Shown piece by piece: positions 2,251-62,573 of a stretch of DNA of 64,000 nucleotides. Each line of letters opens with the position of its first letter. Within the stretch, counting starts at the first letter, position 1. The notes under the pieces are model-generated. The model was not told the origin of the DNA. It ran no database searches and saw only the letters and a program-made list of their open reading frames with translations. The translations under genes were made by a program, and so were the position numbers. This stretch comes from Agathobacter sp. (GTDB lineage: Bacteria; Bacillota; Clostridia; Lachnospirales; Lachnospiraceae), in assembly GCA_022775045.1 (NCBI GenBank), contig JALFLB010000060.1:1-64000 (forward strand), given 5' to 3'.

Positions 2251-2498
2251 CTACTCATCCGCAATTTGTTTTCCAGTCACATCCATGTGATAATTCTCAC
2301 GCATAATCAATTCAGAAACCGGTACAATTGTATATCCTTTTTCCTCAAGCTGTGTCAACAGCGTATCCAGTGCTTCCGCAGTGTATTTAGCTCCATTATG
2401 GCAGAGTATGATCGCCCCAGGTCCTAGCGCTTTGTGATTACACACTGTATCAATGATAGAGTCCACTCCATAATCTTTCCAATCGAGACTATCCACAG
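2251..2498 (-). pseudogene. Polysaccharide deacetylase, C-terminal fragment (3 of 3)
   Basis: Encodes the last part of a NodB-fold deacetylase, from VDSLDW through GPGAIILCHNGAKY to the stop. The DSLDW segment and the ILCHN segment (active-site histidine) match the C-terminal conserved motifs of PdaB-like deacetylases. There is no start of its own: the open frame runs right into the element at the TCCACAG repeat. Joined to 6992-7327 it reads PIQWSVDSLDWKDYG in frame. As it stands it is non-functional unless the element is excised. Confidence 0.85.
2492..2498. repeat. Element 1 attachment core, left copy
   Basis: TCCACAG, repeated at 6992-6998. It marks where host deacetylase sequence changes to element sequence. 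The flanks outside the repeat are the two halves of the deacetylase gene. Confidence 0.8.
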
Positions 2499-2565
2499 GC
2501 GATACAATTGAAAACAGAGTAATATCAGGTGTTTGCAGGCTTTTTGAGAACACTTAACACCAGAA

Positions 2566-2592
2566 AATGCCCAGAGATCTAGTCTGGGCATT
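2566..2592 (-). terminator. Hairpin after the ATPase gene
   Basis: 10-bp perfect stem (AATGCCCAGA / TCTGGGCATT) 19 bases beyond the stop of the minus-strand ATPase gene. The following T-tract is poor (TTCTGGTGTT), so termination efficiency is uncertain. Confidence 0.5.
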
Positions 2593-2611
2593 CTCTATAA
2601 CTCTCAACATA

Positions 2612-4198
2612 TTATTTTTTGTACTGCTCAATCACGCACTGGTGCTTTTTATCTTTCTTATCATAGCTGATGCCAACCAGCAATATATCTCCGGTGTACT
2701 GCTCCAGGGATGCCGGATACTGTTTATTCTTAATCTGCTGCAAGGCAGTATTTGCGTTCTTGTTCCATTTCAGTTCCACAAGCAGCGCAGGATAGTCAGC
2801 CCGATATTCCGGCTTTGGAATATAGACAAAATCTGCAAATCCTCTACCTGTTGGAAGTTCTCTAATTGGCTTGAAATAATAGCTCATCGAACTCAAATAA
2901 GCAATGGTCAGTACACTGCTGAGTGAATTTTCATCATGATACTGAATGGCAGAAGCATACTCTGTATGAATCTTTTCTATGTCTGCAGCCACTGCTTCCT
3001 CTTCCCTGTCCAGCGTAGCTTCAAGCAGTTCCTTCGACTGTAGTTCAAATTCCGCAAGCACATTCCACTCTTTGTTTTTGGTAGCTGACAGGAATTCCTG
3101 CCGAGTTTCCTCATTGGGAATAAACGCGGTCTTTTTCACCTGATCATATGCCAGATACCCCAGATGAATCAAAAGAGTAAGCACATCATCTCTATCCTGG
3201 AAGCTAACCATATCATTTTGAAACGTATTTGTGTTTACTTCCACAGCATTGCCGGAAATCATTTCAATAATTGCCGTTTTCAAGCCATGAAAATTCATGC
3301 TGATAAAGGGTCTGATCGACTCAAAAGTACCAGTCTGTGACCAGTAGCTCTGGAATGTACCCCGAAGCATTACGCTGACAACGGCTTTGGGATTATAAAT
3401 ATGCTGCCCCGACAGCCAGTATCCATCATACCATCGCACGACTTCAGCAAAGTCTCTATCATACTTTTCACTTAATTTCCTTACCTCATCTTCGGTAAAT
3501 CCCATATATGGAGCCATTACCCCTGCATCGAGCATGGTATATTCATCAAAGTTATTCAGAGCCGACTGGGTCTTCAGCTTTTTTATAGGCAGAATCCCTG
3601 TCAAATAGGCAAGACTGATAAATCTGGTTGGTTCTGTTCCTTTAAACATCCCCCTCAGAAAATCAATGTACGCCTCCTGTACTGCCCTGTTGTTTGCTTC
3701 GTCTCGAATAAGGACATCCCACTCATCAATGATTACCATAAACTTATTTCCGGTCGCCGCATGAATCTGGGACATCGCACCCGGAAGGGAAACCACTGTA
3801 TCATCAAGTATACCTGGATACTCCAGCTTCAATTCTTCAATTACACTCTTCTCGATAAACGCAACTACATTTTCCGGTCCTTTGGCAGGCGTAAGACACC
3901 ACTGCACATCGAAATGGATCACATCATGTTTGTTCAGTTGTGTTCGGAAAGAATCCATGCTGCCAATTTTCAATCCGGCAAACATATCGGCTGAATCACA
4001 TCCCCTGCTGTAATATGCGGTGAGCATATCGGCTGTAATTGATTTTCCAAAGCGACGGGGACGGCTGTTACAAATAAAAGCCTGCTTTGTATTGATTACC
4101 CGATTTGTATAATCAATGAGTCCCGTCTTGTCCACATATATTTCAGAATTCAACGCAGTCTGGAATGCACTGTTATCCGGATTCAAAAATCTTCCCAT
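2612..4198 (-). CDS. AAA-ATPase-like / PD-(D/E)XK nuclease-like protein
   Basis: 528 residues, typical of the AAA-ATPase-like plus DUF1703 proteins common in gut bacteria. The N-terminal part carries a P-loop variant RPRRFGKS (46-53) and a Walker-B-like VIIDEWD (155-161). The C-terminal part has the spaced Asp456...Glu475-Leu-Lys477 of a PD-(D/E)XK nuclease fold (GFADF ... LLVELKW). The cellular role of the family is not established. It is cargo of element 1, transcribed away from the recombinase with 122 bases between them. It may act in element maintenance or defence, which is inference. Confidence 0.8.
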   Translation of the reverse strand: MGRFLNPDNSAFQTALNSEIYVDKTGLIDYTNRVINTKQAFICNSRPRRFGKSITADMLTAYYSRGCDSADMFAGLKIGSMDSFRTQLNKHDVIHFDVQWCLTPAKGPENVVAFIEKSVIEELKLEYPGILDDTVVSLPGAMSQIHAATGNKFMVIIDEWDVLIRDEANNRAVQEAYIDFLRGMFKGTEPTRFISLAYLTGILPIKKLKTQSALNNFDEYTMLDAGVMAPYMGFTEDEVRKLSEKYDRDFAEVVRWYDGYWLSGQHIYNPKAVVSVMLRGTFQSYWSQTGTFESIRPFISMNFHGLKTAIIEMISGNAVEVNTNTFQNDMVSFQDRDDVLTLLIHLGYLAYDQVKKTAFIPNEETRQEFLSATKNKEWNVLAEFELQSKELLEATLDREEEAVAADIEKIHTEYASAIQYHDENSLSSVLTIAYLSSMSYYFKPIRELPTGRGFADFVYIPKPEYRADYPALLVELKWNKNANTALQQIKNKQYPASLEQYTGDILLVGISYDKKDKKHQCVIEQYKK

Positions 4199-4320
4199 CA
4201 GTCACACACTCCCTCTCTTCACAATCTATTGTTACTTCTGACTTGTAACGATGCTACTATGACTTTAAGTGTATCACATCGATTATTTTCTAACAAGCGT
4301 AATATAAACCTGGTTCTCCC

Positions 4321-5814
4321 TCAGACTTTCCAGATAATCTCAATCTCATCATCAAACACATTGATCCGTTCAATAAAAGCCTGGGCTGTCATTTTCTTTT
4401 CTTCAAAATTCAGCCTGGCAAAATGAATTCCTTTGTAATACTGTTTTCTATCCTCTTTCGGAGCCTCGTATTGTCTCAAAAGTTCTGCTTTTCTCATATC
4501 CAGATTCTCAATCTCTGAATTGATATATTTCATCGAAATATCAGAAGCTTCCTGCATACATCCAAGTAATCTCTGAATTTTGTTCTCTATTTCCTGCAGT
4601 TCTTTTCTGAGCTTCCTCTCATTGTCATTATTTTCTACCGGAATCTGCTCTTTATTGCACTCTTCCAGTATTATTTCCAGTTCTTTCTGAACCTCCGCCT
4701 CCACCTCGTCCACATGCTGGGAAAAGGATTGTTTGTCGCAGATATGTAAATTTGCTCTTCCACTGCAATACAGATATTTTTTTTCGTGCCATTTTCTAAC
4801 GGTAAGGGAATAACCGCAGTTTCCGCATTTTAGCAGGCCTGAGAGCCATGTGTTTTTTCCTTTCCCGGAATTTCCAATCTGCCGGTTCTTTTCCAGACGA
4901 TACTGACATCTAAGCCATATCTCCGAAGGAATCTTTCCTTCAAAATTCGTCAGAGAGAGTACCTGATCCTGCATACTGGTATATTTTCTGACATTACCGG
5001 CGCGTTTTCCCACTACCTGTGCAGAGCTGTTTCCATTGAATTCCTCTATGCTATTTGATATTTTGCCAATATTCCGGCTCTTATAATATAGGTAGATATC
5101 CTCGTCTGCCTGCACATAGACAGGCGAGTGCAGGATTCTTGCCAGTGCCACGTTATCCCATCCTGCTTTCCTTTTTCTGCATGGAATCTGCCGCTTGGTC
5201 AGATCCTTTCCGATTTCTCCCAATGATACATCCTCTGTCGCATATCGGTAAAAGATTTCCTTTACAATCTCAAACTCTTCCGTATATGCAAGTGAAGGTA
5301 CATCCCTCCCTTCTTCATCTTTAATCTTGATATTCTTCATTCCGTATGGTGCCGGACCACCGGGCCAGTTTCCGCGCTTGATTCTGGTATAATAATTGTC
5401 CGTCACACGCTCTGCAATGGTTTCCCTCTCCAGCTGTGCAAACACCATAATGATGTAGATCATGGCACGTCCCATGGGTGTGCTGGTGTCAAATTTCTCA
5501 TTCACCGATACAAAATCCACCTGATGCTGATCCAATACATCCCAGAACTGTCCAAAATCCAGAATTGATCTGCTCAACCGGTCCAGACGATAGACAATGA
5601 TTTTACTGATTTTTTCCTCTTTCACATCCTGCTGCAGCTTTTGAAATCCCGGTCTTATCGTATTCTTTCCGCTAAACCCCCTGTCCGCATAAACTTTCGC
5701 TGTGTCCGGATAGCCGCACTCCAGCCGGCACCGCTCAATTTGTCCTTCAATGGACAACGAATCCTTCTTGTCCTTTGACTGCCTTACATAAATTGCCTCC
5801 AGCTTATCAGCCAT
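4321..5814 (-). CDS. Large serine recombinase, element 1
   Basis: 497 residues in the large serine integrase architecture. The resolvase catalytic domain has the nucleophile Ser13 in YVRQS and the DNA-cleavage motif YRLDRLSR (75-82). A recombinase domain occupies roughly residues 150-290. A zinc ribbon at about 330-365 contains CGNCG and later cysteines. A long coiled coil and C-terminal tail follow. These enzymes catalyse attP x attB integration and, with a directionality factor, excision. No frameshift or missing catalytic residue is visible, so the enzyme looks functional. Unusually for an integrase it sits mid-element, about 1.2 kb from the nearer end. Confidence 0.93.
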   Translation of the reverse strand: MADKLEAIYVRQSKDKKDSLSIEGQIERCRLECGYPDTAKVYADRGFSGKNTIRPGFQKLQQDVKEEKISKIIVYRLDRLSRSILDFGQFWDVLDQHQVDFVSVNEKFDTSTPMGRAMIYIIMVFAQLERETIAERVTDNYYTRIKRGNWPGGPAPYGMKNIKIKDEEGRDVPSLAYTEEFEIVKEIFYRYATEDVSLGEIGKDLTKRQIPCRKRKAGWDNVALARILHSPVYVQADEDIYLYYKSRNIGKISNSIEEFNGNSSAQVVGKRAGNVRKYTSMQDQVLSLTNFEGKIPSEIWLRCQYRLEKNRQIGNSGKGKNTWLSGLLKCGNCGYSLTVRKWHEKKYLYCSGRANLHICDKQSFSQHVDEVEAEVQKELEIILEECNKEQIPVENNDNERKLRKELQEIENKIQRLLGCMQEASDISMKYINSEIENLDMRKAELLRQYEAPKEDRKQYYKGIHFARLNFEEKKMTAQAFIERINVFDDEIEIIWKV

Positions 5815-5860
5815 CCGGTCACCTCCCTCCCTTTGTATTTCTTAAGAAAGAACTGATATT

Positions 5861-5974
5861 CTACGACTTAGCAGAAGCTTTGGGCGCGTTTAATTTTCTG
5901 ACCAGTGCCTGGTAGATCAGATGTTTTGCCTGTTTGCCTTCTTCCGGCTGTTTATGTATATTTTTGATGATCAT
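5861..5974 (-). CDS. 37-aa micro-protein upstream of recombinase
   Basis: Short basic ORF (starts MIIKNIHKQPEEGKQAKHL, ends PKASAKS) with a good ribosome site AAAGGGGAA before its ATG, ending 46 bases before the recombinase start. Its size, charge and position make it a candidate directionality or regulatory factor, but no homology is recognised. Confidence 0.5.
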   Translation of the reverse strand: MIIKNIHKQPEEGKQAKHLIYQALVRKLNAPKASAKS

Positions 5975-6147
5975 ACTTTTCCCCTTTCTTTCCTTATTTG
6001 TAACTATTCAGGCCCCTGAATAGTTACCCTTATTTAATATCTTATGACTGCATGGTTGTCCTTTATAATCACTCCCTCCACGCTTTTTTGCAATCCGCAA
6101 AATAAAAGACATCAACCTGTTATGGTCAATGCCCCTGCCTGCAAATA
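5975..6147. other. Intergenic stretch in element 1
   Basis: AT-rich region between the secreted-protein pseudogene and the micro-gene. CAGGGGCCTGAATAGTTA-like inverted bases occur near 6010-6030, but I see no convincing gene or terminator. It probably holds the promoter for the micro-gene and recombinase. Confidence 0.3.
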
Positions 6148-6915
6148 TCAGTAACAATTTACATACAGAAAATGGGCGCATGGAGAATACTGCATTTCCA
6201 TATCTTCACAGTTTGGATCACCCTTATAAGACACCCAAATCTGGTAAGTACCGGCATTAAACGGATATCGTTCTCCATCATCGCCTTCTTCTGTTAAAGA
6301 AGAATCAAGTACCTTTCCATCTTTGTTTCTAAACTCTTCTTTATAATACTGTAGGTCAAGACCATCTGACATGTCCATTTTCTGATAACACATCCAGCCA
6401 CCGTCATACTCCCTCTCTGTCCCTTCAAACTTGAATTCACTTGCTGCAACCTTTCGTTTTTTTATCTCAACGTTGCCAAGTTCTATTGGTTTAGAGGTTA
6501 CAATGGAGCCTCCATCTATGGACACAGCAACTGCATAAGTTCCTGCCTCCTAGAAACCCTTCTTATTTTTGTCTTCTGGTATTAATTCTATTTCAATGTC
6601 ATCATCTTGAATCAAGCTCTTATATTCATCTCTAATTTTAATTGCACTATCTACTGCAGCAAATTGTTACTCTCCATTATACGTCAGATTAAGATTATTC
6701 AACTCTGAGTAATCCAGTATATTCCCTATATTATCTTTTGTCACCCCTACCTGTTCTTTAACCGGCTCTGCGGTATTGTCCGCATATACCGGTATTGCCA
6801 TAGCAGGCACATTCGTTGCAGCCATGGAGACTGCCAGCATGACCGCAAACAATTTCATTACACTTTTGTTCTTCATTCCTTTTCTTCTCCTACGTAATCC
6901 AATTGTAAAAAACAA
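6148..6915 (-). pseudogene. Secreted protein, interrupted by two in-frame stops
   Basis: Starts with a signal peptide (basic start, hydrophobic LFAVMLAVSMAATNVPA, then a likely AxA-type cleavage region near PVYA). The same reading frame continues through a TAA (about 6668-6670), a 45-codon open stretch and a TAG (about 6550-6552) to a stop at 6148. Because the frame is kept on both sides of each stop and coding character continues (QFAAVDSAIKIRDEY, then EAGTYAVAVSIDGG), this is one gene with two nonsense mutations and not three genes. The family is unrecognised. The EAGTYAV and NAGTYQIWVSY segments suggest an extracellular beta-sandwich domain. Confidence 0.7.
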
Positions 6916-6991
6916 CTACAACTTTATGTTTATACCTATGAAGCTCATTTTTCAATAACTTCATGAGCCTTTTCACTCTGTATCGTCTGCG

Positions 6992-6998
6992 TCCACAG
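6992..6998. repeat. Element 1 attachment core, right copy
   Basis: Second TCCACAG. The element side carries GTATCGTCTG (6980-6989), the mirror of CAGGCGATAC at the left end. Confidence 0.8.
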
Positions 6999-7327
6999 AC
7001 CACTGAATCGGATAATAATTCATATCATATGCTGTCTTCACTACCTCATTATCATATGCCCCATACGGCGGACGAAACAGAAACATTTCATATCCCGTCA
7101 ATTCCTTCACCTTATCGTGAACGATCTGCATTTCCTTCTCCTTTTCTGTACGGGAAATGGTAGTCATATCGTAGTGATGCTCGCTGTGGTTGCCCAAATC
7201 ATGCCCTTTCTCAACCAGTTCCTTAACGCAGTCCGGATTATCATCCACCCAGTTTCCAGTCATAAAAAAAGTGACCTTTACCTGATGCTTATCCAGGATC
7301 TCCATAATTTTCGGAAAATCCTCTGCC

Positions 7328-7334
7328 CCCCAGG
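7328..7334. repeat. Element 2 attachment core, left copy
   Basis: CCCCAGG, repeated at 11893-11899. Host deacetylase sequence lies to its left and element 2 to its right. Confidence 0.75.
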
Positions 7335-7357
7335 GTAATGTAAAAAGGGGATAATTT

Positions 7358-8905
7358 TTATTCCAGACTGAATTTAAACCTGATATCTATGTGTATCCCC
7401 TCGGAATCTTCTTTGACATAAATCTTTTCCAGCGTCTCTGCCAGAATACCCCTATCCAGTTTTTCTATGCTGTGATACTTCTGTAAATGCTCAAGCCATG
7501 CCATTTTTTCTGAACCTTGGCTTTGTTCTTCCTGCTTTGCAACTTCCATCAGTGCCTTGCACTGCTTTTCTTCCTCTTCATAATTGGATTTTATGTCTAT
7601 ATATTCTTCCTTGGAAATGATTCCATCTGAATATGTTTCAAACAGCTTTCTTTTTCGTTGCTTTATAATTGCCAGCTTTTCTTCCTGTTTCTTAAGCTCT
7701 GTTCCCCGAGTAGATACCTTAGCTTTTATTGCATCAATCTCAACATTTGCTTTTGCAACATATTCATTGAGTTTATTTAATACAGCCTGTTCCAGAATTT
7801 CACTTTTTACTCCATGTCTGGTACAAATATCTGAACCATACGCACGATATGACCTGCATATGTAGGATATCACTTTTCCCTGTTTTGTCTGATATGTTGC
7901 CTTAGCCATTGCCCTGCCGCAATCGGCACATTCGATAAACCCTGCAAATAATGCTATGTTTTCATTGAAATCTAATTGACTCCCTCTACGCTTCAACAAC
8001 TGCTGTACCAGATCCCATTTTTCCCTGCTCACAATTGCTTCATGCGTATTTTCTGTAATAATCCAGTCCTCTTTATTATTCTTCTGCGCTTTTCCTCTTG
8101 GTGTTACACGCTTTGTCCGATTCAGCACCATGTTTCCGATGTACATTTCATTGGATAATATTTTATGAATAGTGCTATATGTCCAATAAGTTGTTGTAAA
8201 TAGTCGATTTCCATTACAATACTTACTGCCCATTAACTTTTTATACTCTGTGGGACATGGAATATTCCTGTCATTCAAAATCTTCGCTATTGACTGCTTT
8301 CCATGCCCCTCAATATATAAATCAAATATCATTCGAATAATTGGTGCAACATTTTCATCAATTAACAGTTTGTGCTTATCAGCTGGGTCTTTGATAAACC
8401 CATATCCAGCGTGCGAACCTGTAAACTTTCCCTCTGACTGTTTGGCACGAAAAGACCGTTGCACTTTCTCACTGATATCCAGACTATAATAATTATTCAT
8501 CATTGTCCGCATCGGCATCATAAAGTTATCTGATCCGTTTGCGTTTGCAGAATCATAATTATCATTGATTGCGATTACTCTTACTCCCTGCTCTTTGAAA
8601 TCTCTGAAAATATACTTTCCTGTTTCAATATAATCTCTCCCGAATCGTGATAAGTCTTTGACTATAATGGTATTGATGAAACCCTTTTCAATATCCTGCA
8701 ACATTCTCTGAAAATCAGGTCTGTTAAAATTTAGTCCTGTATATCCATCATCTACATACTCTCTGATTTCCACACAACTTGGCAGGTTTGCAGATACATA
8801 TTGATTTATAATACTTCTTTGTGAACCGATACTGTTACTTTCTATGTTCTCATATCCATCATCATTGGAGAGTCTCATATACTCCCCTAAATATATTTTA
8901 TCCAT
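7358..8905 (-). CDS. Large serine recombinase, element 2
   Basis: 515 residues. The catalytic domain has Ser13 in EYMRLS and the cleavage motif KDLSRFGRD. The recombinase domain follows, then a zinc ribbon (ECADCGRAM ... ICRSYRAYGSDIC), a coiled coil rich in Lys/Glu and a short beta tail. The start is the ATG at 8905 (MDKIYLGEY), preceded by GGGGGAG; the upstream GTG at 8917 has no ribosome site. It belongs to the TnpX-like subgroup common in Clostridia transposons and is only about 25% similar by eye to the element 1 enzyme. It lies adjacent to the left att core and should mediate excision of element 2. Confidence 0.93.
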   Translation of the reverse strand: MDKIYLGEYMRLSNDDGYENIESNSIGSQRSIINQYVSANLPSCVEIREYVDDGYTGLNFNRPDFQRMLQDIEKGFINTIIVKDLSRFGRDYIETGKYIFRDFKEQGVRVIAINDNYDSANANGSDNFMMPMRTMMNNYYSLDISEKVQRSFRAKQSEGKFTGSHAGYGFIKDPADKHKLLIDENVAPIIRMIFDLYIEGHGKQSIAKILNDRNIPCPTEYKKLMGSKYCNGNRLFTTTYWTYSTIHKILSNEMYIGNMVLNRTKRVTPRGKAQKNNKEDWIITENTHEAIVSREKWDLVQQLLKRRGSQLDFNENIALFAGFIECADCGRAMAKATYQTKQGKVISYICRSYRAYGSDICTRHGVKSEILEQAVLNKLNEYVAKANVEIDAIKAKVSTRGTELKKQEEKLAIIKQRKRKLFETYSDGIISKEEYIDIKSNYEEEEKQCKALMEVAKQEEQSQGSEKMAWLEHLQKYHSIEKLDRGILAETLEKIYVKEDSEGIHIDIRFKFSLE

Positions 8906-8926
8906 TTGCTCCCCCACTTTTTCTGC

Positions 8927-9070
8927 TTATGCCAGTTTCTTTGTGTCTGTGCTATGTTCCTTAATCATTTGCTTCATACAATCTTCAAATTTCTGCTCAT
9001 TTGTTGATGAATAACTGATAAAAACCATCTGTTTCTTATCCTTTATTTCACTAATTTTTGCTTTACCCAT
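8927..9070 (-). CDS. 47-aa micro-protein A, recombinase leader gene
   Basis: Short ORF (MGKAKISEIKDKKQM ... ISYSSTNEQKFEDCMKQMI) with a strong AAGGAGG site eight bases before the ATG, ending 21 bases before the recombinase start. It shares the pattern SSTN-x3-F-x2-C-x5-IKEH with the next small ORF, so the two are paralogues. Co-transcribed with the recombinase. A directionality or regulatory role is inference. Confidence 0.6.
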   Translation of the reverse strand: MGKAKISEIKDKKQMVFISYSSTNEQKFEDCMKQMIKEHSTDTKKLA

Positions 9071-9129
9071 ATGCACTATCCTCCTTAATGGGTGGGCAGG
9101 GTAACGCTAAAGCATATTGAAGTCAAGGA

Positions 9130-9243
9130 TTATTTGCAATGTTCTTTGATGATCTTTTCCAGACATTCTACAAACTGACATTGATTCGTAGAAGAGAATG
9201 TAATTTCAATTACCCCCTTGGATTGTTCTTTATTATTAGACAT
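9130..9243 (-). CDS. 37-aa micro-protein B, paralogue of micro-protein A
   Basis: Short ORF (MSNNKEQSKGVIEITF, then SSTNQCQFVECLEKIIKEH). It aligns with micro-protein A over about 25 residues, including SSTN, Phe, Cys and the terminal KEH. The ribosome site before its ATG is weak, but GGAGGG occurs about 60 bases upstream in the same frame, so the true start could be a non-ATG codon nearer that site. Confidence 0.45.
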   Translation of the reverse strand: MSNNKEQSKGVIEITFSSTNQCQFVECLEKIIKEHCK

Positions 9244-9327
9244 AGAACTGCTGCAATTCTCTGCTTCTTTTACATTATTTCTATGCTTATCTGTGTTTTG
9301 ATATTCTCTATAATCGCCCTCCGTAGT

Positions 9328-9600
9328 CTATGCAGAAAATGTAAACATTTTCTTCTTTTCTACTGTGTCAGATGTGAATGAAACTTTGGCTTCATCAAGT
9401 GCGGTCTGGATTGCACCAAACATTTCGTTGACCTGCTCTGTGGTGCAGGTGTAGTACTTCTTATTTGACAGCTTTTGTAACTTCTCTATCTCTGCTATCA
9501 CTTTACCAAGAATTTTATTGTGAAGTGTACGAAGTGCAAGAAAAAAGACAGCACCCATTCGCGCTGTCCTTAAACCATGATTCCTATATTGAATTTTCAT
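9328..9600 (-). pseudogene. Unrecognised ORF, probable 3' remnant
   Basis: Frame of 90 codons. The C-terminal two thirds look protein-like (EIEKLQKLSNKKYY, then TTEQVNEMFGAIQTALDEA). The first 20 codons coincide with the toxin gene's stop and its terminator hairpin (9547-9568), so the N-terminus is probably not genuine. I read it as the surviving 3' end of a mobile-element gene joined to the toxin operon. Function unknown. Confidence 0.4.
9541..9568 (-). terminator. Intrinsic terminator of toxin-antitoxin operon
   Basis: Stem GACAGC/GCTGTC with an 8-10 base loop, followed on the minus strand by TTTTTTCTT. It lies 16 bases past the toxin stop. Confidence 0.7.
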
Positions 9601-9895
9601 AGTCCTGCATCTCATGATACATACCTTCAACAATTACTTGCGATTTGTTCACTCGATACACAAACAAATATCTATGCTTCACAAAATGAATTTTATGTAA
9701 TCCCATTTCCTTCAAACGATTACTGCTACAATATCCAAAGCTCTCTGCCATTTTCTCCAGCTTTGCAATCGTATCATCAAAATCATCCATTACATTTTTT
9801 AATGCCTGAGGATTCTTTAATTCATATGCAATATATGACAGAATATCATCATACTGTTGTTCTGCTAATTCTGAAAGTTCTACATTAAACTGCAT
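9584..9895 (-). CDS. ParE/RelE-family toxin
   Basis: 103 residues, the normal size for the family. The N-terminus (VELSELAEQQYDDILSYIAYEL) is the helical hairpin typical of ParE/RelE. The C-terminal sheet contains HKIHFVKHRYLFVYRV and a final MYHEMQDYE. The start overlaps the antitoxin stop by 11 bases, the usual toxin-antitoxin coupling. RelE members cut ribosome-bound mRNA and ParE members poison gyrase; the sequence does not tell me which. Likely role: stabilisation of element 2 against loss. Confidence 0.85.
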   Translation of the reverse strand: MQFNVELSELAEQQYDDILSYIAYELKNPQALKNVMDDFDDTIAKLEKMAESFGYCSSNRLKEMGLHKIHFVKHRYLFVYRVNKSQVIVEGMYHEMQDYENSI

Positions 9896-10118
9896 ACTTG
9901 TCCCTCATGCTTCGTGATACTTCTCTGGCAGACTTTGTTGCTCCCATGTCACTTTTTCTAATTGACTCGGAGAGTTGCGCCACCAACTCATCTTCACTCA
10001 ATTTTTGAAGTCCACCCATTTCTGACTTCTCGGACAATCTATTTACGAGCATGATTACCATGTTATAATCTTCTTCAGACAAACTCTCAATTTTTGCTGT
10101 TAATTCTGCTGTACCCAT
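9885..10118 (-). CDS. Antitoxin of ParE/RelE module
   Basis: 77-residue acidic protein directly upstream of, and overlapping, the toxin. An alpha-helical N-terminal half (LTAKIESLSEEDYNMVIMLVNRL) is followed by a flexible charged tail likely to wrap the toxin. No clear ribbon-helix-helix is visible, so the DNA-binding type is unassigned. Identity rests mainly on genetic context. Confidence 0.75.
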   Translation of the reverse strand: MGTAELTAKIESLSEEDYNMVIMLVNRLSEKSEMGGLQKLSEDELVAQLSESIRKSDMGATKSAREVSRSMRDKYAV

Positions 10119-10174
10119 GTCTGAACCAACTCCTTTCGCAATCTATCTTTTCTTTATTATACTTCCTATAGTTC

Positions 10175-10282
10175 TCAAAATCCACAACATTTTATTCCTA
10201 TCCCAGCCATTACTAAAAACTTTCTCTCATGTAACTGCTGTCTTGATGATACTCGAAGTAAAGTTCTTACTCGTTTACTCAC
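10175..10282 (-). pseudogene. Truncated serine recombinase, N-terminal remnant
   Basis: 35-codon ORF starting at GTG with AAGGAGG eight bases upstream. It begins SKRVRTLLRVSSRQQLH, which matches the start of serine recombinases (LRVS with the catalytic Ser, then the QQLH segment). It then diverges and stops (FLVMAGIGIKCCGF), so all of the enzyme after about residue 18 is lost. A trace of an earlier element at this site. Confidence 0.6.
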
Positions 10283-10556
10283 GGCTCATTCCTCCTTGTG
10301 AACTTGTTTCACATTTCCCCCTTGGGGTTGGGAATGATACTTCTTTGGAGTCTCTTTGTAAAGACCCTTTTAGGATTTTTATCTTTTCTTTCTAACCTCC
10401 GCTTCCGCTGATACCACCGACATTTCTTCCATACCGTTGTTCTCATTTTCTTATTGTCAGTTATAAGTCAATGAGGTTCTGAAATTTTGTATTCTCTGTC
10501 AGGTTCATTTCTTTCCATCTTTGAAAGCGTTTTCATCTCACGCTCCCCTGCACTAA
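10283..10556. other. Non-coding stretch inside element 2
   Basis: I see no credible gene. A short plus-strand frame exists only because of T-rich composition. The segment separates the recombinase remnant from the secreted-protein gene and is probably degraded mobile-element DNA. Confidence 0.4.
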
Positions 10557-10557
10557 A

Positions 10558-10586
10558 AACCGGATGCACATATTGTACATCCGGTT
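10558..10586 (-). terminator. Intrinsic terminator of the Ig-like protein gene
   Basis: 9-bp perfect stem (AACCGGATG / CATCCGGTT), 11-base loop, followed on the minus strand by TTTTAG. It lies 22 bases beyond the stop at 10609. Confidence 0.8.
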
Positions 10587-10608
10587 CTCGAAGATCAGTT
10601 TTCAAATA

Positions 10609-11514
10609 CTATTTTACCGTAACCTTGACCTTAACTGTTTTTCCATTAGCTTTTACCGTAATAGTTGCCTTACCTTTTTTAACACCCTTCACAACACCTT
10701 TACTCGTTACAGTAGCAACTTTTGTATTCGATGATTTATAGGTAACCTTTGCTGTTGGCAATGTTGTCGCCTTGATGCTTACTTTCTTACCCTTCTTAAC
10801 TGAAAGTGATGTCTTAGATACCTCTAATGCTTTTCCTGAGAATGAAACAACCTTTGGTGTGCTCTTTTGTTCAGAGCTATTAATATTATAAGAGCAATAT
10901 CCCAAGTTACCGTTTTCATAATCAACTGTTGATACCGCTGTTCCATCTACAACAAGGGCAACATCATCAAAATAGATACTTCCTTTGTACGTTTTATTTG
11001 AACCACTAATAAATGCCCCTGCAATAATCTGTCCCTGTCCTTCCGGGAAACTGCCTTCGTTGTCTCCTACAAAACACTTATCAATCGGCATCTTTGCATC
11101 AACCACATAGAAATCATTATATTTTGTAACCGCTTCTGATTCCTTATCAAAAGAATAACCGTCCGAAGACATTGCCCATCCTGCATCTGTATCTAAATCT
11201 TCTCCTGTCCAAAAAGAAATATTCGGTCTTATCCATAAACTTCCACTCTCCATGAACGTCGCCGGAACATAGATTTTTATATTAAGAGCATAAGTGTTTC
11301 CGAAAGTAACCTCCTCATTTGAAAGCAACCAATTCAAATACACACTACTGTCATCCCCAGACTGCACCCCTTTAATAAAGTTGACATTGGTTTCCATTAC
11401 CTTTGTCTTGCTTGCGGCTTCTGCCTCTACAACGCCGCCTACAGGAAGTGCAGTAATAGCCATTGCCAATGCCATAATTGTTGCAATTACTTTTCCCTTT
11501 GTCTTATTGAACAT
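10609..11514 (-). CDS. Secreted protein with C-terminal BIG2 domain
   Basis: 301 residues. A Sec signal peptide occupies residues 1-33 (basic MFNKTKGK, hydrophobic core, cleavage near VEAEAAS). A central beta-rich domain at about 40-215 has a layout suggesting a carbohydrate-binding jelly roll (YLNWLLSNEEVTFGNTYALN, IYFDDVALVV). A single Ig-like BIG2 domain at about 225-301 carries LEVSKTSLSVKKGKKV, SSNTKVATV and GKATITV. There is no LPXTG or membrane anchor. It is cargo of element 2 with a strong AAGGAGG site and its own terminator. The ligand is unknown. Confidence 0.8.
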   Translation of the reverse strand: MFNKTKGKVIATIMALAMAITALPVGGVVEAEAASKTKVMETNVNFIKGVQSGDDSSVYLNWLLSNEEVTFGNTYALNIKIYVPATFMESGSLWIRPNISFWTGEDLDTDAGWAMSSDGYSFDKESEAVTKYNDFYVVDAKMPIDKCFVGDNEGSFPEGQGQIIAGAFISGSNKTYKGSIYFDDVALVVDGTAVSTVDYENGNLGYCSYNINSSEQKSTPKVVSFSGKALEVSKTSLSVKKGKKVSIKATTLPTAKVTYKSSNTKVATVTSKGVVKGVKKGKATITVKANGKTVKVKVTVK

Positions 11515-11681
11515 ATTTTTTTCCTCCTTACATGTTCATTTGTAATTATTCATTGTAACAAATTATATAATATATATTATGATACGTCAATAATTACCAA
11601 TAATACCATCTAAACGATATTAAAAATAGTGATTTTTACAACAAATCAAACTAACGGAGGAGTTACATAATGCGTTGAAAC
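11515..11681. promoter_or_regulatory. AT-rich upstream region of the Ig-like protein gene
   Basis: Very AT-rich, including an imperfect palindromic TATATAATATATATTATGATA run near 11566-11585. It must hold the minus-strand promoter for the secreted protein; I cannot fix the hexamers with confidence. Confidence 0.35.
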
Positions 11682-11780
11682 TTAGATGTGATTATACAGA
11701 ATATGAGCATCATCTAATACAATATAATTTTCTATCTCATCAAGGTCTTTTAAAGCTGGTCTTGTCCATCTTACTCTCAT
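11682..11780 (-). pseudogene. Truncated ParE/RelE toxin
   Basis: 32-codon ORF beginning MRVRWTRPALKDLDEIENYI, a textbook ParE/RelE N-terminus. It loses similarity after VLDDAH and stops. Its start overlaps the stop of the antitoxin frame (GCATGAG), keeping the usual coupling. Two thirds of the toxin, including the catalytic sheet, are missing, so it is inactive. Confidence 0.65.
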
Positions 11781-11905
11781 GCATGCACTCCATCCTTCTC
11801 ATGCTTTCTTGCAAAATGCGCTCTGACCTCTTCTGTGGTCAATGTTCCCTCTTCTCTGGCGGACTTTTTTCCATTGTCCTTATCTAACCGCTCCCCAGGC
11901 AGCAT
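11777..11905 (-). pseudogene. Antitoxin of the truncated module, 5' end cut at the att site
   Basis: 42-codon frame (RLDKDNGKKSAREE, TTEEVRAHFARKHEK). The coding character begins right at the CCCCAGG core. The only upstream ATG (11903-11905) lies in the host deacetylase gene, out of the host frame. It therefore either lost its own start on integration or borrows the host's ATG. Confidence 0.5.
11893..11899. repeat. Element 2 attachment core, right copy
   Basis: CCCCAGG, matching 7328-7334. To its right the deacetylase N-terminal fragment resumes. Confidence 0.75.
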
Positions 11906-12110
11906 CAAAACTCAGCGCAACCTTATTCTCCGTTGTATCGACGCAGTAGATGGGAAGCTCACGATCCCCCACGGTTGCACTTGCCACCACAGCATTTGTC
12001 GCTTCATAAGAAATAAAAATCAGACACGCAAAAAGAGTCGCAACAAGAAGTCCATTTCCCCACTTCTCGTGTGACCCTTTTTTACACTTTTTATGTATGA
12101 ATTTCTGCAT
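11893..12110 (-). pseudogene. Polysaccharide deacetylase, N-terminal fragment (1 of 3)
   Basis: Starts at ATG 12110, 53 bases after mtnN. It encodes a basic N-terminus and one membrane/signal segment (GLLVATLFACLIFISY). This is followed by RELPIYCVDTTENKVALSF and the first catalytic motif FDAAWG, where the Asp is the metal/base residue of NodB enzymes. In the integrated state the frame gives AVR and a stop, a 76-residue membrane stub. Spliced to 6992-7327 and 2251-2491 it makes a 264-residue protein of PdaB-like size and layout. PdaB-type enzymes are linked to spore peptidoglycan in Bacillus. It is the last gene of the pepF-luxS-mtnN direction. Confidence 0.87.
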
Positions 12111-12163
12111 GTTCCACCTGTCGAACCAAACTCTTGATAGAGTCTATGTCCCGACCCTGTTTT

Positions 12164-60660: not shown

Positions 60661-61104
60661 TCACTCCCTGGCTATTATTTTTGCGTAATGAATCCCCTGC
60701 ACGGATTCAATACTGTTCTTCATATCTTCCACATTGCCTGTTGCAGGAAACACATCAATACTGAGCGACAGTGAAGCAATTCCATTAACCGGAATGCTCT
60801 GATGGATCGTCAATACATTGGCATGAAATTCTGCAATTGTCTTAAGAACCACCGATAGCAGTCCCGGCTCATCGTCGAGTTGAATCACCATCGTTATGGT
60901 CTTCCCCTTTGCATTCTCATGATATGGAAAAATATCATCCTTATACTTGTAGAAGGAACTTCTACTAATCCCCACTGCCTCCGTGGCATCTGCAACGGAT
61001 TCCACTTTACCGGAATCAAGCAGCCGCTTCGCCTCCACAACCCTGAGCAGTACCTCCGGCACAGCTTTTTCCCGTAATACGAAAAAAGATGTCTTCTCTG
61101 CCAT
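60661..61104 (-). CDS. ACT-domain protein (PheB/UPF0735 type)
   Basis: 147 residues. The N-terminal helical region has a putative HTH (VADATEAVGISRSSFYKYKDDI). The C-terminal ACT domain (about 70-147: TITMVIQLDDEPGLLSVVLKTIAEFHANVLTI, split here by motif) binds amino acids in the family. The start is ATG 61104 with AGGGAGG. The next gene, hom, starts five bases after its stop, so it is probably the amino-acid sensor of homoserine synthesis. Confidence 0.88.
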   Translation of the reverse strand: MAEKTSFFVLREKAVPEVLLRVVEAKRLLDSGKVESVADATEAVGISRSSFYKYKDDIFPYHENAKGKTITMVIQLDDEPGLLSVVLKTIAEFHANVLTIHQSIPVNGIASLSLSIDVFPATGNVEDMKNSIESVQGIHYAKIIARE

Positions 61105-61171
61105 CTTATTCCCTCCTTTGCGTTGTCTGCCTACGACCGACACCTGTGCTCACTCGAAAGATTCTAACATA

Positions 61172-61202
61172 ATAAGGCGAGGCTTGCAAGCCCTCGCCTT
61201 AT
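61172..61202. terminator. Hairpin between SPFH gene and ACT-hom operon
   Basis: ATAAGGCGAG(G)CTT / AAGCCCTCGCCTTAT, a 14-bp stem with one bulge. Likely terminator of the SPFH gene, though the T-run is poor on both sides. Confidence 0.6.
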
Positions 61203-61224
61203 AGAATCGTATCTATTATATCAA

Positions 61225-62463
61225 TTAAGCACGTGGCTTTCCACAATTACTGCAGAACTTACCACTGTTTACCTGACCGCAGGAACAGGTCCACTCCGCT
61301 GCAGGAGCCGGCTTTCCACATTCACTGCAGAACTTACCGCTGTTTACCTGACCACAGGAACAGGTCCATGTCCCCGCCGGTGCCGCTGCCTGCGGATTAC
61401 CTGCTGATCCCATTGCCTGTGCATTGCCTGTTGCACCTGCCATCTGTGCCTGTGTCGCAGCCACATTCTGCTGCTGCATCTGCATCTGGGCAAGATTAAC
61501 ATTAGAGGCCGCTCCCATCACACCTCCTGTCACATTGGAAGCCATACCCATTCCCATAAAACCGGCCATGGATCCGTTGGCATTACTTCCGGCTGCCTCG
61601 AGCCCCCGGGCAACTGCTCCCTGCACATATCCTTCTCGAATGGTCGGGTCCGAGAGCATCGCGCCCTCATTTCTCATGTTGATCAACTTCTGGGAATCCT
61701 CATTGTAGGATACTGTCAGACCAACTGCCTGAATCTCCATACCACGGGTCTGATTCCATTCCTGATCCAAAATGGAAGACATATATTGTCCTAGTTCTCT
61801 TGCCTTGCTGGAAACATAAGAAATCCGGATTCCGTCCGCAGACATCTGATTAATGGCAGACTGCAACGCCTCTAAAAATTCTGACAAATACTGTTCATTA
61901 ATCTCATCAATTTCCACATGATCCTTATTTCTCGGAATAGCCTCCGCATAAAACTGCAGAGGATTCACAATTTTAATGGAATAGTTTCCATGTGCACGAA
62001 GAAACAGTTCTGCATTATAAAAAGAATCAAAATAATTGATTGGCTGTCTTGTTCCAAACTTAATTCCCTTGATTTCCTGAAGATTAATAAAGAAAACCTT
62101 TTGTGCCGTTGGTGTCTGTCCTCCGAATCGAATTCGGTCAAAGGACTCCTTCAAACTGTCACCAAACTGACCGTTAAACATGGATGGCAGAGAGGAATTG
62201 TCCACTTTATAATATCCTGGTTCCGCTGTGTAATCTACAATCTTACCGCCATCGACAAGCAACATAAATTGATTATCATACACATGAATAACAGAACCAT
62301 TTGTTACTGTATCCTCTGTCCCTTTACGATTCTGTCCCTTTCGCATAAGAACACCGCGGGCAAAAACGGTCTGATCTCCCATATTGTCCGCCTCATACAC
62401 CTCAAGCCACTGGTCGGCAAACGCACCTCCAATTGCCTGCGTTACTGCTTTTATAATTCCCAT
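61225..62463 (-). CDS. SPFH-domain protein with duplicated zinc ribbon
   Basis: 412 residues. YdjI-type SPFH domain (about 20-275), a Gly/Ala/Met/Gln-rich linker (about 285-360), then two zinc ribbons with pattern CSCGQVNSGKFCS-CGKP. The ribbons are encoded by a 75-bp tandem repeat. In Bacillus, ydjI is in the pspA operon and linked to membrane stress. Here it neighbours a YdjG-like gene. Strong AAGGAGGAG site. Confidence 0.85.
   Translation of the reverse strand: MGIIKAVTQAIGGAFADQWLEVYEADNMGDQTVFARGVLMRKGQNRKGTEDTVTNGSVIHVYDNQFMLLVDGGKIVDYTAEPGYYKVDNSSLPSMFNGQFGDSLKESFDRIRFGGQTPTAQKVFFINLQEIKGIKFGTRQPINYFDSFYNAELFLRAHGNYSIKIVNPLQFYAEAIPRNKDHVEIDEINEQYLSEFLEALQSAINQMSADGIRISYVSSKARELGQYMSSILDQEWNQTRGMEIQAVGLTVSYNEDSQKLINMRNEGAMLSDPTIREGYVQGAVARGLEAAGSNANGSMAGFMGMGMASNVTGGVMGAASNVNLAQMQMQQQNVAATQAQMAGATGNAQAMGSAGNPQAAAPAGTWTCSCGQVNSGKFCSECGKPAPAAEWTCSCGQVNSGKFCSNCGKPRA
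61235..61369. repeat. 75-bp tandem duplication of the zinc-ribbon coding DNA
   Basis: Copies at 61235-61294 and 61310-61369 (period 75), differing at about five positions over 60 bases. It duplicates the C-terminal zinc ribbon of the SPFH protein. Confidence 0.85.
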
Positions 62464-62504
62464 ATTCTCCTCCTTATTCTATTTCATCATTACTGTATGG
62501 AGCA

Positions 62505-62573
62505 AATCGCATAAAGCATGCCTTCAACATGGCGATTCGCGCAAGTCATGACCGTACCTCTTACAATCATTAC
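62505..62573 (-). repeat. Structured repeat, copy 2
   Basis: Minus strand: GTAATGATTGT, a 7-base loop and ACGGTCATGAC pair with two G-U pairs and one mismatch. Seven bases later a second hairpin AATCGC...GCGATT encloses ATGTT-GAA-GGCAT. Same geometry as copy 1. It begins at the stop codon of the YdjG-like gene. Confidence 0.6.

Follow-up and report, generated by a model that had tools for sequence, protein, structure and literature searches.

A PdaB-like deacetylase gene split by two large serine recombinase elements in Agathobacter suggests reassembly of spore genes by DNA excision

The window considered here, a stretch of 64,000 nucleotides of Agathobacter sp. (assembly GCA_022775045.1, contig JALFLB010000060.1, positions 1 to 64,000), carries on its minus strand three collinear pieces of one gene for a PdaB-like, NodB-type deacetylase, here called dac, separated by two elements that each encode their own large serine recombinase (LSR). 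The N-terminal piece, which runs through FDAAW, lies at 12110-11893, the middle piece at 7334-6992 and the C-terminal piece, from HNG to the stop codon, at 2498-2251. Alignment to intact orthologues delimits both the pieces and the elements between them: E1 (7335..11899, minus strand, 4565 bp between core copies) is bounded by the core CCTGGGG at 11893..11899 on its N side and 7328..7334 on its C side, and E2 (2499..6998, minus strand, 4500 bp between core copies) by the core CTGTGGA at 6992..6998 and 2492..2498, the crossover dinucleotides probably being TG in E1 and GA in E2, as judged from the alignment and the attP sites and, for E1, from a comparison of cores. The insertion points, between FDAAW and GAED (site 1) and between QWSV and DSLDW (site 2), are both conserved attB sites. 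Joined at the two 7-bp cores, the pieces give 795 nt in frame, with 264 codons and a single terminal stop. The initial annotation, which had taken the fragments for collinear parts of one deacetylase and summed them as 218+336+241, thus had coordinates, frame and total right, only the assignment of the cores being different. Family scan and relatives search identify Rec1 (7358..8917, minus strand, 519 aa) in E1 and Rec2 (4321..5814, minus strand, 497 aa) in E2, each with resolvase, recombinase and zinc-ribbon domains; that both keep their catalytic residues, as had been proposed, agrees with a readable YxRxS in each, which we take to be the catalytic-serine motif of LSRs.

A check for an intact orthologue in close relatives had been set beforehand and was carried out on 60 relatives, among them 35 other genomes of the same genus. 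Intact dac, with open frames of 268-296 aa, occurs in 15 of these 35; a further genus-mate (G003) has a dac cut off by a contig end, which may be intact or split, and no close orthologue was found in 19. Among the named genomes matched by the middle piece are those of Roseburia faecis and R. porci and metagenome-assembled genomes of Agathobacter, which places the host among the gut Lachnospiraceae of this genus. The closest intact orthologue is that of G017, 91% identical in amino acids across the middle piece. Rejoined dac aligns with it gap-free across both junctions, with no codon extra or missing at the cores. These alignments support the view that the three pieces are one gene interrupted by two different LSR elements. 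The earlier claim that both insertions are exactly reversible stands in a structural sense, on the intact relatives, the in-frame joins and the attP palindromes described below.

The same gene is cut in other genera of the family. A sample of 397 family genomes was searched for relatives of Rec1 and Rec2, for dac pieces beside the matches and for dac frames, and dac proved to be cut at one or more of three sites in 21 genomes, mostly adjoining homologues of Rec1 or Rec2. Site 1 is cut in 14 genomes (the window's genome G000, G075, G085, G088, G116, G141, G166, G229, G284, G323, G404, G426, G444 and G455), site 2, between SV and D, in nine (G000, G085, G183, G220, G251, G310, G321, G392 and G426), and site 3, at GGWV, in one (G332), by a third, different LSR whose element carries transporter and two-component-type genes as read by eye. 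A dac match at E 1e-25 is present in 156 of the 397, and 19 of the 21 cut genomes fall within these 156 because G141 and G251 lay below the match threshold. Both flanks with an LSR between them stand on one contig at both sites in G000, at site 1 in G075, G085, G088, G141, G166 and G444, at site 2 in G310 and G321 and at site 3 in G332; both flanks without an LSR are seen at site 1 in G284 and G455. The evidence is a single flank next to an LSR, or pieces divided between two contigs, for site 1 in G116, G229, G323, G404 and G426 and for site 2 in G085, G183, G251, G392 and G426, and the call for G220 comes solely from a dac frame ending at site 2. At all 13 junctions with both flanks (site 1 in G000, G088, G166, G075, G444, G284, G455, G085 and G141; site 2 in G000, G321 and G310; site 3 in G332), joining restores an open frame and the consensus motif. 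Two further expectations held in part. The double interruption, previously regarded as rare, is present in the window, but dac is also doubly cut in G085 and G426, cotJC of G051 lies in four pieces and cyanobacterial nifD can hold four elements. All dac pieces and both LSRs of the window point the same way, but the LSR is antisense to dac in G088, G166, G075 and G444, so that a functional need for a shared orientation of host gene and recombinase is ruled out.

The attachment to dac holds for particular groups of recombinases. Among 30 Rec2-type loci examined, the eight at 47% identity or more, the window's own included, adjoin dac, and the other 22, at 40% or less, lacked a dac piece within the approximately 1.5 kb examined per side. 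Rec1 has a weak match to DUF4368 (23.4 bits vs a cut-off of 25), a domain linked to multi-targeting LSRs in the accessible part of one survey (PMC10083194); despite this match, 12 of 30 examined Rec1-type loci, again including the window's own, adjoin site 1 of dac. In the LSR tree as drawn, with six forks unresolved and 17 of 50 intended rows left out (16 of 18 Rec2 relatives and the Rec1 of G116), the site-1 LSRs are scattered over several clades.

Several observations accompany this survey. The LSR-less site-1 insertions (L171, 6554-8766; L174, 8123-10492) carry a glutamate-cysteine ligase-like gene or ThrE exporter genes, and both genomes have Rec1 relatives elsewhere. Three dac-like genes stand side by side in G310, one distant, one split and one intact (L126, 4870-11240). 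An orphan dac N-terminal fragment stands just upstream of an intact dac in L066 (9484-9624), perhaps the scar of a past insertion or duplication. G334, taken from its frame length for an interrupted dac, was ruled out, the frame meeting a contig end. In viral collections no relative of dac or Rec1 was confirmed; Rec2 relatives occur there at 40-45% identity, one of them (L227, 8001-9464, 45%) within a phage-like viral contig, and two phage records match at 30-35%.

When the two ends of an element are joined as a circle, the resulting attP shows the palindrome expected for LSRs, clearly for E2, moderately for E1 and clearly in the relatives of E1. Scored out of 25, E2 reaches 15 about GA, which is the highest of 45 offsets without a tie, and E1 reaches 13 about TG, a score tied with one offset beyond the core, so that its centre is not unique; random positions average 6.2-6.3, the E1 score being reached by 0.5% of them and the E2 score by 0.05%. 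The TG crossover had first been suggested by the comparison of cores across other genomes, and in the site-1 relatives G088 (20/25), G444 (17), G166 (16) and G085 (16) the same TG is the single best centre. Of the 13 attP sites rebuilt in all, that of G455 (9/25) is no better than chance, those of G075 and G141 (12/25) are weak, and that of G332 gives 8/25 at the frame-keeping crossover and 15/25 one base aside, a centre chosen post hoc. Crossover points at the junctions of relatives were read by eye, the automatic longest-common-substring cores being wrong at most junctions; that of G332 was placed so as to keep the frame, and the palindrome scores for cotJC of G009 and cwlD of G091, genes treated below, were excluded where automatic core finding had failed. 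The origin of the window in a 60-contig assembly might prompt the suspicion of an assembly chimaera, or of a dead pseudogene. Such a reading is hardly credible against the shared cores, the attP palindromes and the recurrence of the arrangement in several unrelated assemblies, where a single contig holds both flanks together with the LSR, and an assembly artefact was rejected on these grounds.

The interrupted gene looks spore-specific, judging by its PdaB-like protein, its association with spoIVA and a sigmaE-type -10 box. The best NCBIfam model for dac is PdaB (TIGR02764), with 208-219 bits for three intact relatives. The window's genome contains spoIVA, as do all 21 genomes with an interrupted dac, and across the family sample spoIVA is present in 149 of 156 genomes with dac vs 109 of 241 without it (Fisher p 2e-28, phylogeny not corrected). 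Upstream of dac in the window, 38 nt before the start codon, lies CATAGACT (12141..12148, minus strand), a match to the pattern CATAnnnT, which we assume to be a -10 box of sigmaE/sigmaK type from the consensus sequences of such promoters and from an example in C. difficile. The anchoring of 83 dac loci, 19 of which were dropped as duplicate or too short, left 64 distinct upstream regions, some from close relatives, and 52 of these contain CATAnnnT; shuffled regions do so 16.8 times on average (maximum 26 in 300 shuffles), random 240-mers of the same loci 21.1 times (maximum 30 in 200 draws), and stretches upstream of other open reading frames (ORFs), taken with slightly different bounds, in 125 of 449 cases. 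The -35 region of dac is frequently (K)MATA-like. The C. difficile promoter example reads ATA-N16-CATATATA, and in the portion of that report available three C. difficile polysaccharide deacetylases are under sigmaE control (PMC3789822); binding of SpoIIID upstream of B. subtilis ybaN (pdaB) is likewise described in the accessible text of another (PMC517825). That dac is tied both to spore-forming bacteria and to a box of sigmaE type also bears on phase variation, in which stochastic excision and reintegration would toggle the deacetylase in growing cells. LSR insertion is reversible in principle, and yin is known, from the excerpt available, as a growth-phase-dependent mix of integrated and excised forms (PMC10747680), but vegetative switching of a gene so tied would matter little, and phase variation is accordingly a very improbable account of dac.

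Splitting by LSRs extends to other spore genes. Three PF07508-type LSRs were found in the window's genome, whose assembly is about 90% complete: two lie in dac, and the third splits cotJC. The latter (contig C29, ~61101-62515, L137) adjoins a CotJC-type frame starting at profile position 28, the missing N-terminal 32 residues are found on contig C58 (75095-75190, L259), and the pieces, split near residue 31, join in frame when compared with G017; the rebuilt attP of this element scores 18/25 about GG. In a survey of 40 relatives, 29 of which had a manganese-catalase match, cotJC lies in two or more pieces in nine of the 29, G005 and G014 showing one piece only. It is split near residue 31 in G000, G003, G009, G048 and G051, near residue 66 in G004, G039 and G051, and near residue 136 in G007, G045 and G051. 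The four pieces in G051 (L266, L267, L268 and L269), one of which has a stop in its profile match, imply three insertions. Pieces lie 500 bases or less from a contig end in G003, G004, G007, G045 and G051, and G045 holds an intact cotJC besides the split one. By tblastn an LSR stands near a cotJC piece in nine of 11 genomes, with none in G045 and with G014 left out.

A further target is cwlD, the gene of a spore-cortex amidase. The sister clade of Rec1 in the tree (G086, G091, G182, G200, G201, G211 and G235) includes members that adjoin it, and in G086, G091, G201 and G211, which between them hold the loci L133, L135, L139 and L188, cwlD is cut within its DAGHGG motif or directly behind it, beside a Rec1-related LSR, the N piece having been seen, by eye, in G091 only. 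The cwlD of G164 and that of G235 also begin at profile position 7. G182 and G200 are not counted, since their neighbouring amidase matches are weak (44 and 48 bits vs 222) and a complete cwlD is present at another place in G200. The cwlD-sited locus L188, and perhaps L135 too, carries larger, conjugative-looking cargo. No clear split of sigK was seen in the window's genome, the frames of the two best matches being 207 and 256 aa long. In one report a cotJC-like gene was deleted next to a C. difficile prophage.

Besides their recombinases, the two elements of the window carry cargo. In E1 the family scan finds, on the minus strand, a 301-aa secreted-type protein with a Big_2 domain (10609..11514) and a ParE-like toxin (9584..9895; PF05016, 25.3 bits vs a cut-off of 23), preceded by a small ORF without a family match (9885..10118) that, from its position, may encode an antitoxin. 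In E2 it finds a 528-aa AAA-ATPase-like/PDDEXK_9 protein (2612..4198, minus strand); short ORFs are also present, two of which (window 6148-6915) resemble fragments of one broken secreted protein. No transfer or phage structural family appeared among the seven E1/E2 ORFs scanned, the remaining small ORFs lying outside the scan.

Selection on the split gene can be followed in G116 and G426, two species of one genus in which dac is cut at site 1 beside Rec1 relatives that are 91.7% identical over 480 aa. Between them dac has a synonymous divergence (dS) of 0.85-1.25 and a ratio of nonsynonymous to synonymous substitution (dN/dS) of 0.032 in the middle piece and 0.038 in the C-terminal piece, with 0.073 for Rec1 and 0.043, 0.062 and 0.092 for control pairs of intact dac. 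If the insertion is common by descent in these two genomes, the split dac has remained functional; the dS of Rec1, 0.61, is lower than that of dac and leaves room for a later transfer of Rec1. This purifying selection is one of the points at odds with a reading of the insertions as ordinary mobile islets, that is, decayed integrative and conjugative elements, integrative mobilisable elements or prophage remnants whose integrases have their attB in conserved codons of a dispensable gene, and which excise for mobility only and cost the host its deacetylase. That reading would fit the cwlD-sited relatives, which by eye stand beside lysozyme-like and conjugation-type ORFs in G086 and beside one similar ORF in G211, the Rec2 homologue (45%) in the phage-like viral contig and the immobile look of the insertions in G284, G455 and G085, and site choice alone could account for recurrence within one LSR clade. 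It accords poorly with three different LSRs at three sites of one gene, with the choice by other LSRs of the spore genes cotJC (in three places) and cwlD, and with the finding that each of the three PF07508 LSRs detected in the window's genome sits in such a gene, and mobile islets are on balance an unlikely explanation, albeit one to be taken seriously.

E1 and E2 are probably gene-intervening elements of the skin kind, which the terminal mother cell would remove in the course of sporulation. On the model of skin, SPbeta, gin and yin, from which excision, its timing in sporulation, its confinement to the mother cell and the need for a directionality factor are all drawn, each recombinase, probably aided by a small directionality factor, would release its own element in that cell as a circle, and the rejoined dac would yield a working deacetylase for the spore envelope. 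The forespore would keep the split dac, and since it retains the split gene the elements would, on this proposal, be inherited at little cost. According to the accessible portion of one source, nearly all known elements that interrupt sporulation genes sit in genes of the mother cell, and the small ones are proposed to persist for gene reconstitution (PMC6957869).

A number of findings weigh against skin-like elements of this kind. Among genus-mates with a readable dac (15 intact, one that may be either) the window's genome is the only one in which the gene is cut, which may mean that the insertions there are young and that the intact state of its own pieces tells little; compared with G017 the ratio of nonsynonymous to synonymous differences is 0.056 in the middle piece and 0.055 in the C piece, with synonymous differences saturated, and the N piece has a dN/dS of 0.25, ratios that say little on the time since insertion. 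The score of dac falls below the equivalog cut-off of TIGR02764 (237.4), for which reason it is named PdaB-like and not PdaB, the count of CATAnnnT drops to 42 of 64 when the upstream interval is placed differently, and the strict two-block sigmaE pattern is found in 17 of 64 upstream regions. To the tied centre of the E1 attP may be added that no directionality factor was assigned among the small ORFs of the elements, with no test aimed at one, and that an exact search of viral contigs found neither the site-1 attB nor the E2 attP. The LSR-less insertions of G284 and G455 measure 1.5-1.7 kb and two in-frame stops break the site-2 LSR of G085, so that some insertions look stuck or rely on a recombinase elsewhere. 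A second, intact dac is present in G310 and G323.

Taken together, the cutting of relatives at the same places suggests, from sequence comparison, that spore genes are put back together in these bacteria by DNA excision. A wider proposal, that several LSR families have converged on spore-envelope genes of Lachnospirales (dac and cotJC with three sites each, and cwlD) and that the dying mother cell rebuilds many of them at once by multi-locus programmed DNA elimination, is possible but decidedly tentative; if true, it would amount to somatic genome editing like that of heterocysts and ciliates, with some genes needing two or three excisions before they are readable. Split spore genes appear frequent in gut spore-formers (dac in 19 of 156 genomes with a match, cotJC in nine of 29), and if excision takes place, spore formation, and hence spread from host to host, would be tied to mobile DNA. 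Annotation may leave such genes out or label them pseudogenes. The set provides natural pairs of LSRs and att sites, and the doubly split dac raises the question of whether two independent excisions are ordered.

Programmed gene reassembly in sporulation has so far concerned only a few genes, from classical clostridia and from relatives of Bacillus, and this comparison extends as far as the portions of the cited reports available to us. The targets of LSR elements known from them are sigK, spsM, spoVFB, spoVR, gerE and yabG (PMC5025042, PMC4191935, PMC6957869, PMC10747680, PMC5595907). Neither dac/pdaB nor cwlD nor cotJC was found as an LSR-split gene among the literature matches listed, most subscription journals lying outside the search, and the available text of PMC10747680, PMC4191935, PMC5553647, PMC6957869 and PMC5595907 did not yield whichever of pdaB, deacetylase, cwlD and cotJC was sought in each. 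The target genes, the host family and the stacked insertions are new, the kind of system already known. Like E1 and E2, skin is an LSR element inside a gene, in its case the mother-cell sporulation gene sigK of B. subtilis, C. difficile and C. tetani, a class to which dac probably belongs as well; its excision restores sigK, its att sites have inverted repeats as here, and independent insertions are found at different sigK positions as they are in dac (PMC5025042, PMC6957869, PMC5553647). In contrast to skin, the target here is a PdaB-like envelope enzyme and no sigma factor, the elements measure 4.5 kb and lie two to a gene, and their excision is inferred. The element gin in gerE of B. cereus is similarly LSR-driven, lacks phage genes and sits in a small sporulation gene, with a core of 9 bp, but has 28.6 kb and three LSRs where the present elements have one LSR per 4.5 kb (PMC5595907). 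SPbeta in spsM, vfbin in spoVFB, vrin in spoVR and yin in yabG are likewise recombinase-bearing elements that interrupt spore genes, and these do excise; none of the four targets a deacetylase, cwlD or cotJC, and each gene holds one element (PMC4191935, PMC10747680). Several elements per gene, as in dac, are known from the heterocyst elements of nifD, fdxN and hupL, which belong to another phylum and another terminal cell: more than one element occurs in 10 of 87 interrupted genes, and nifD of Rivularia has four (PMC4874684).

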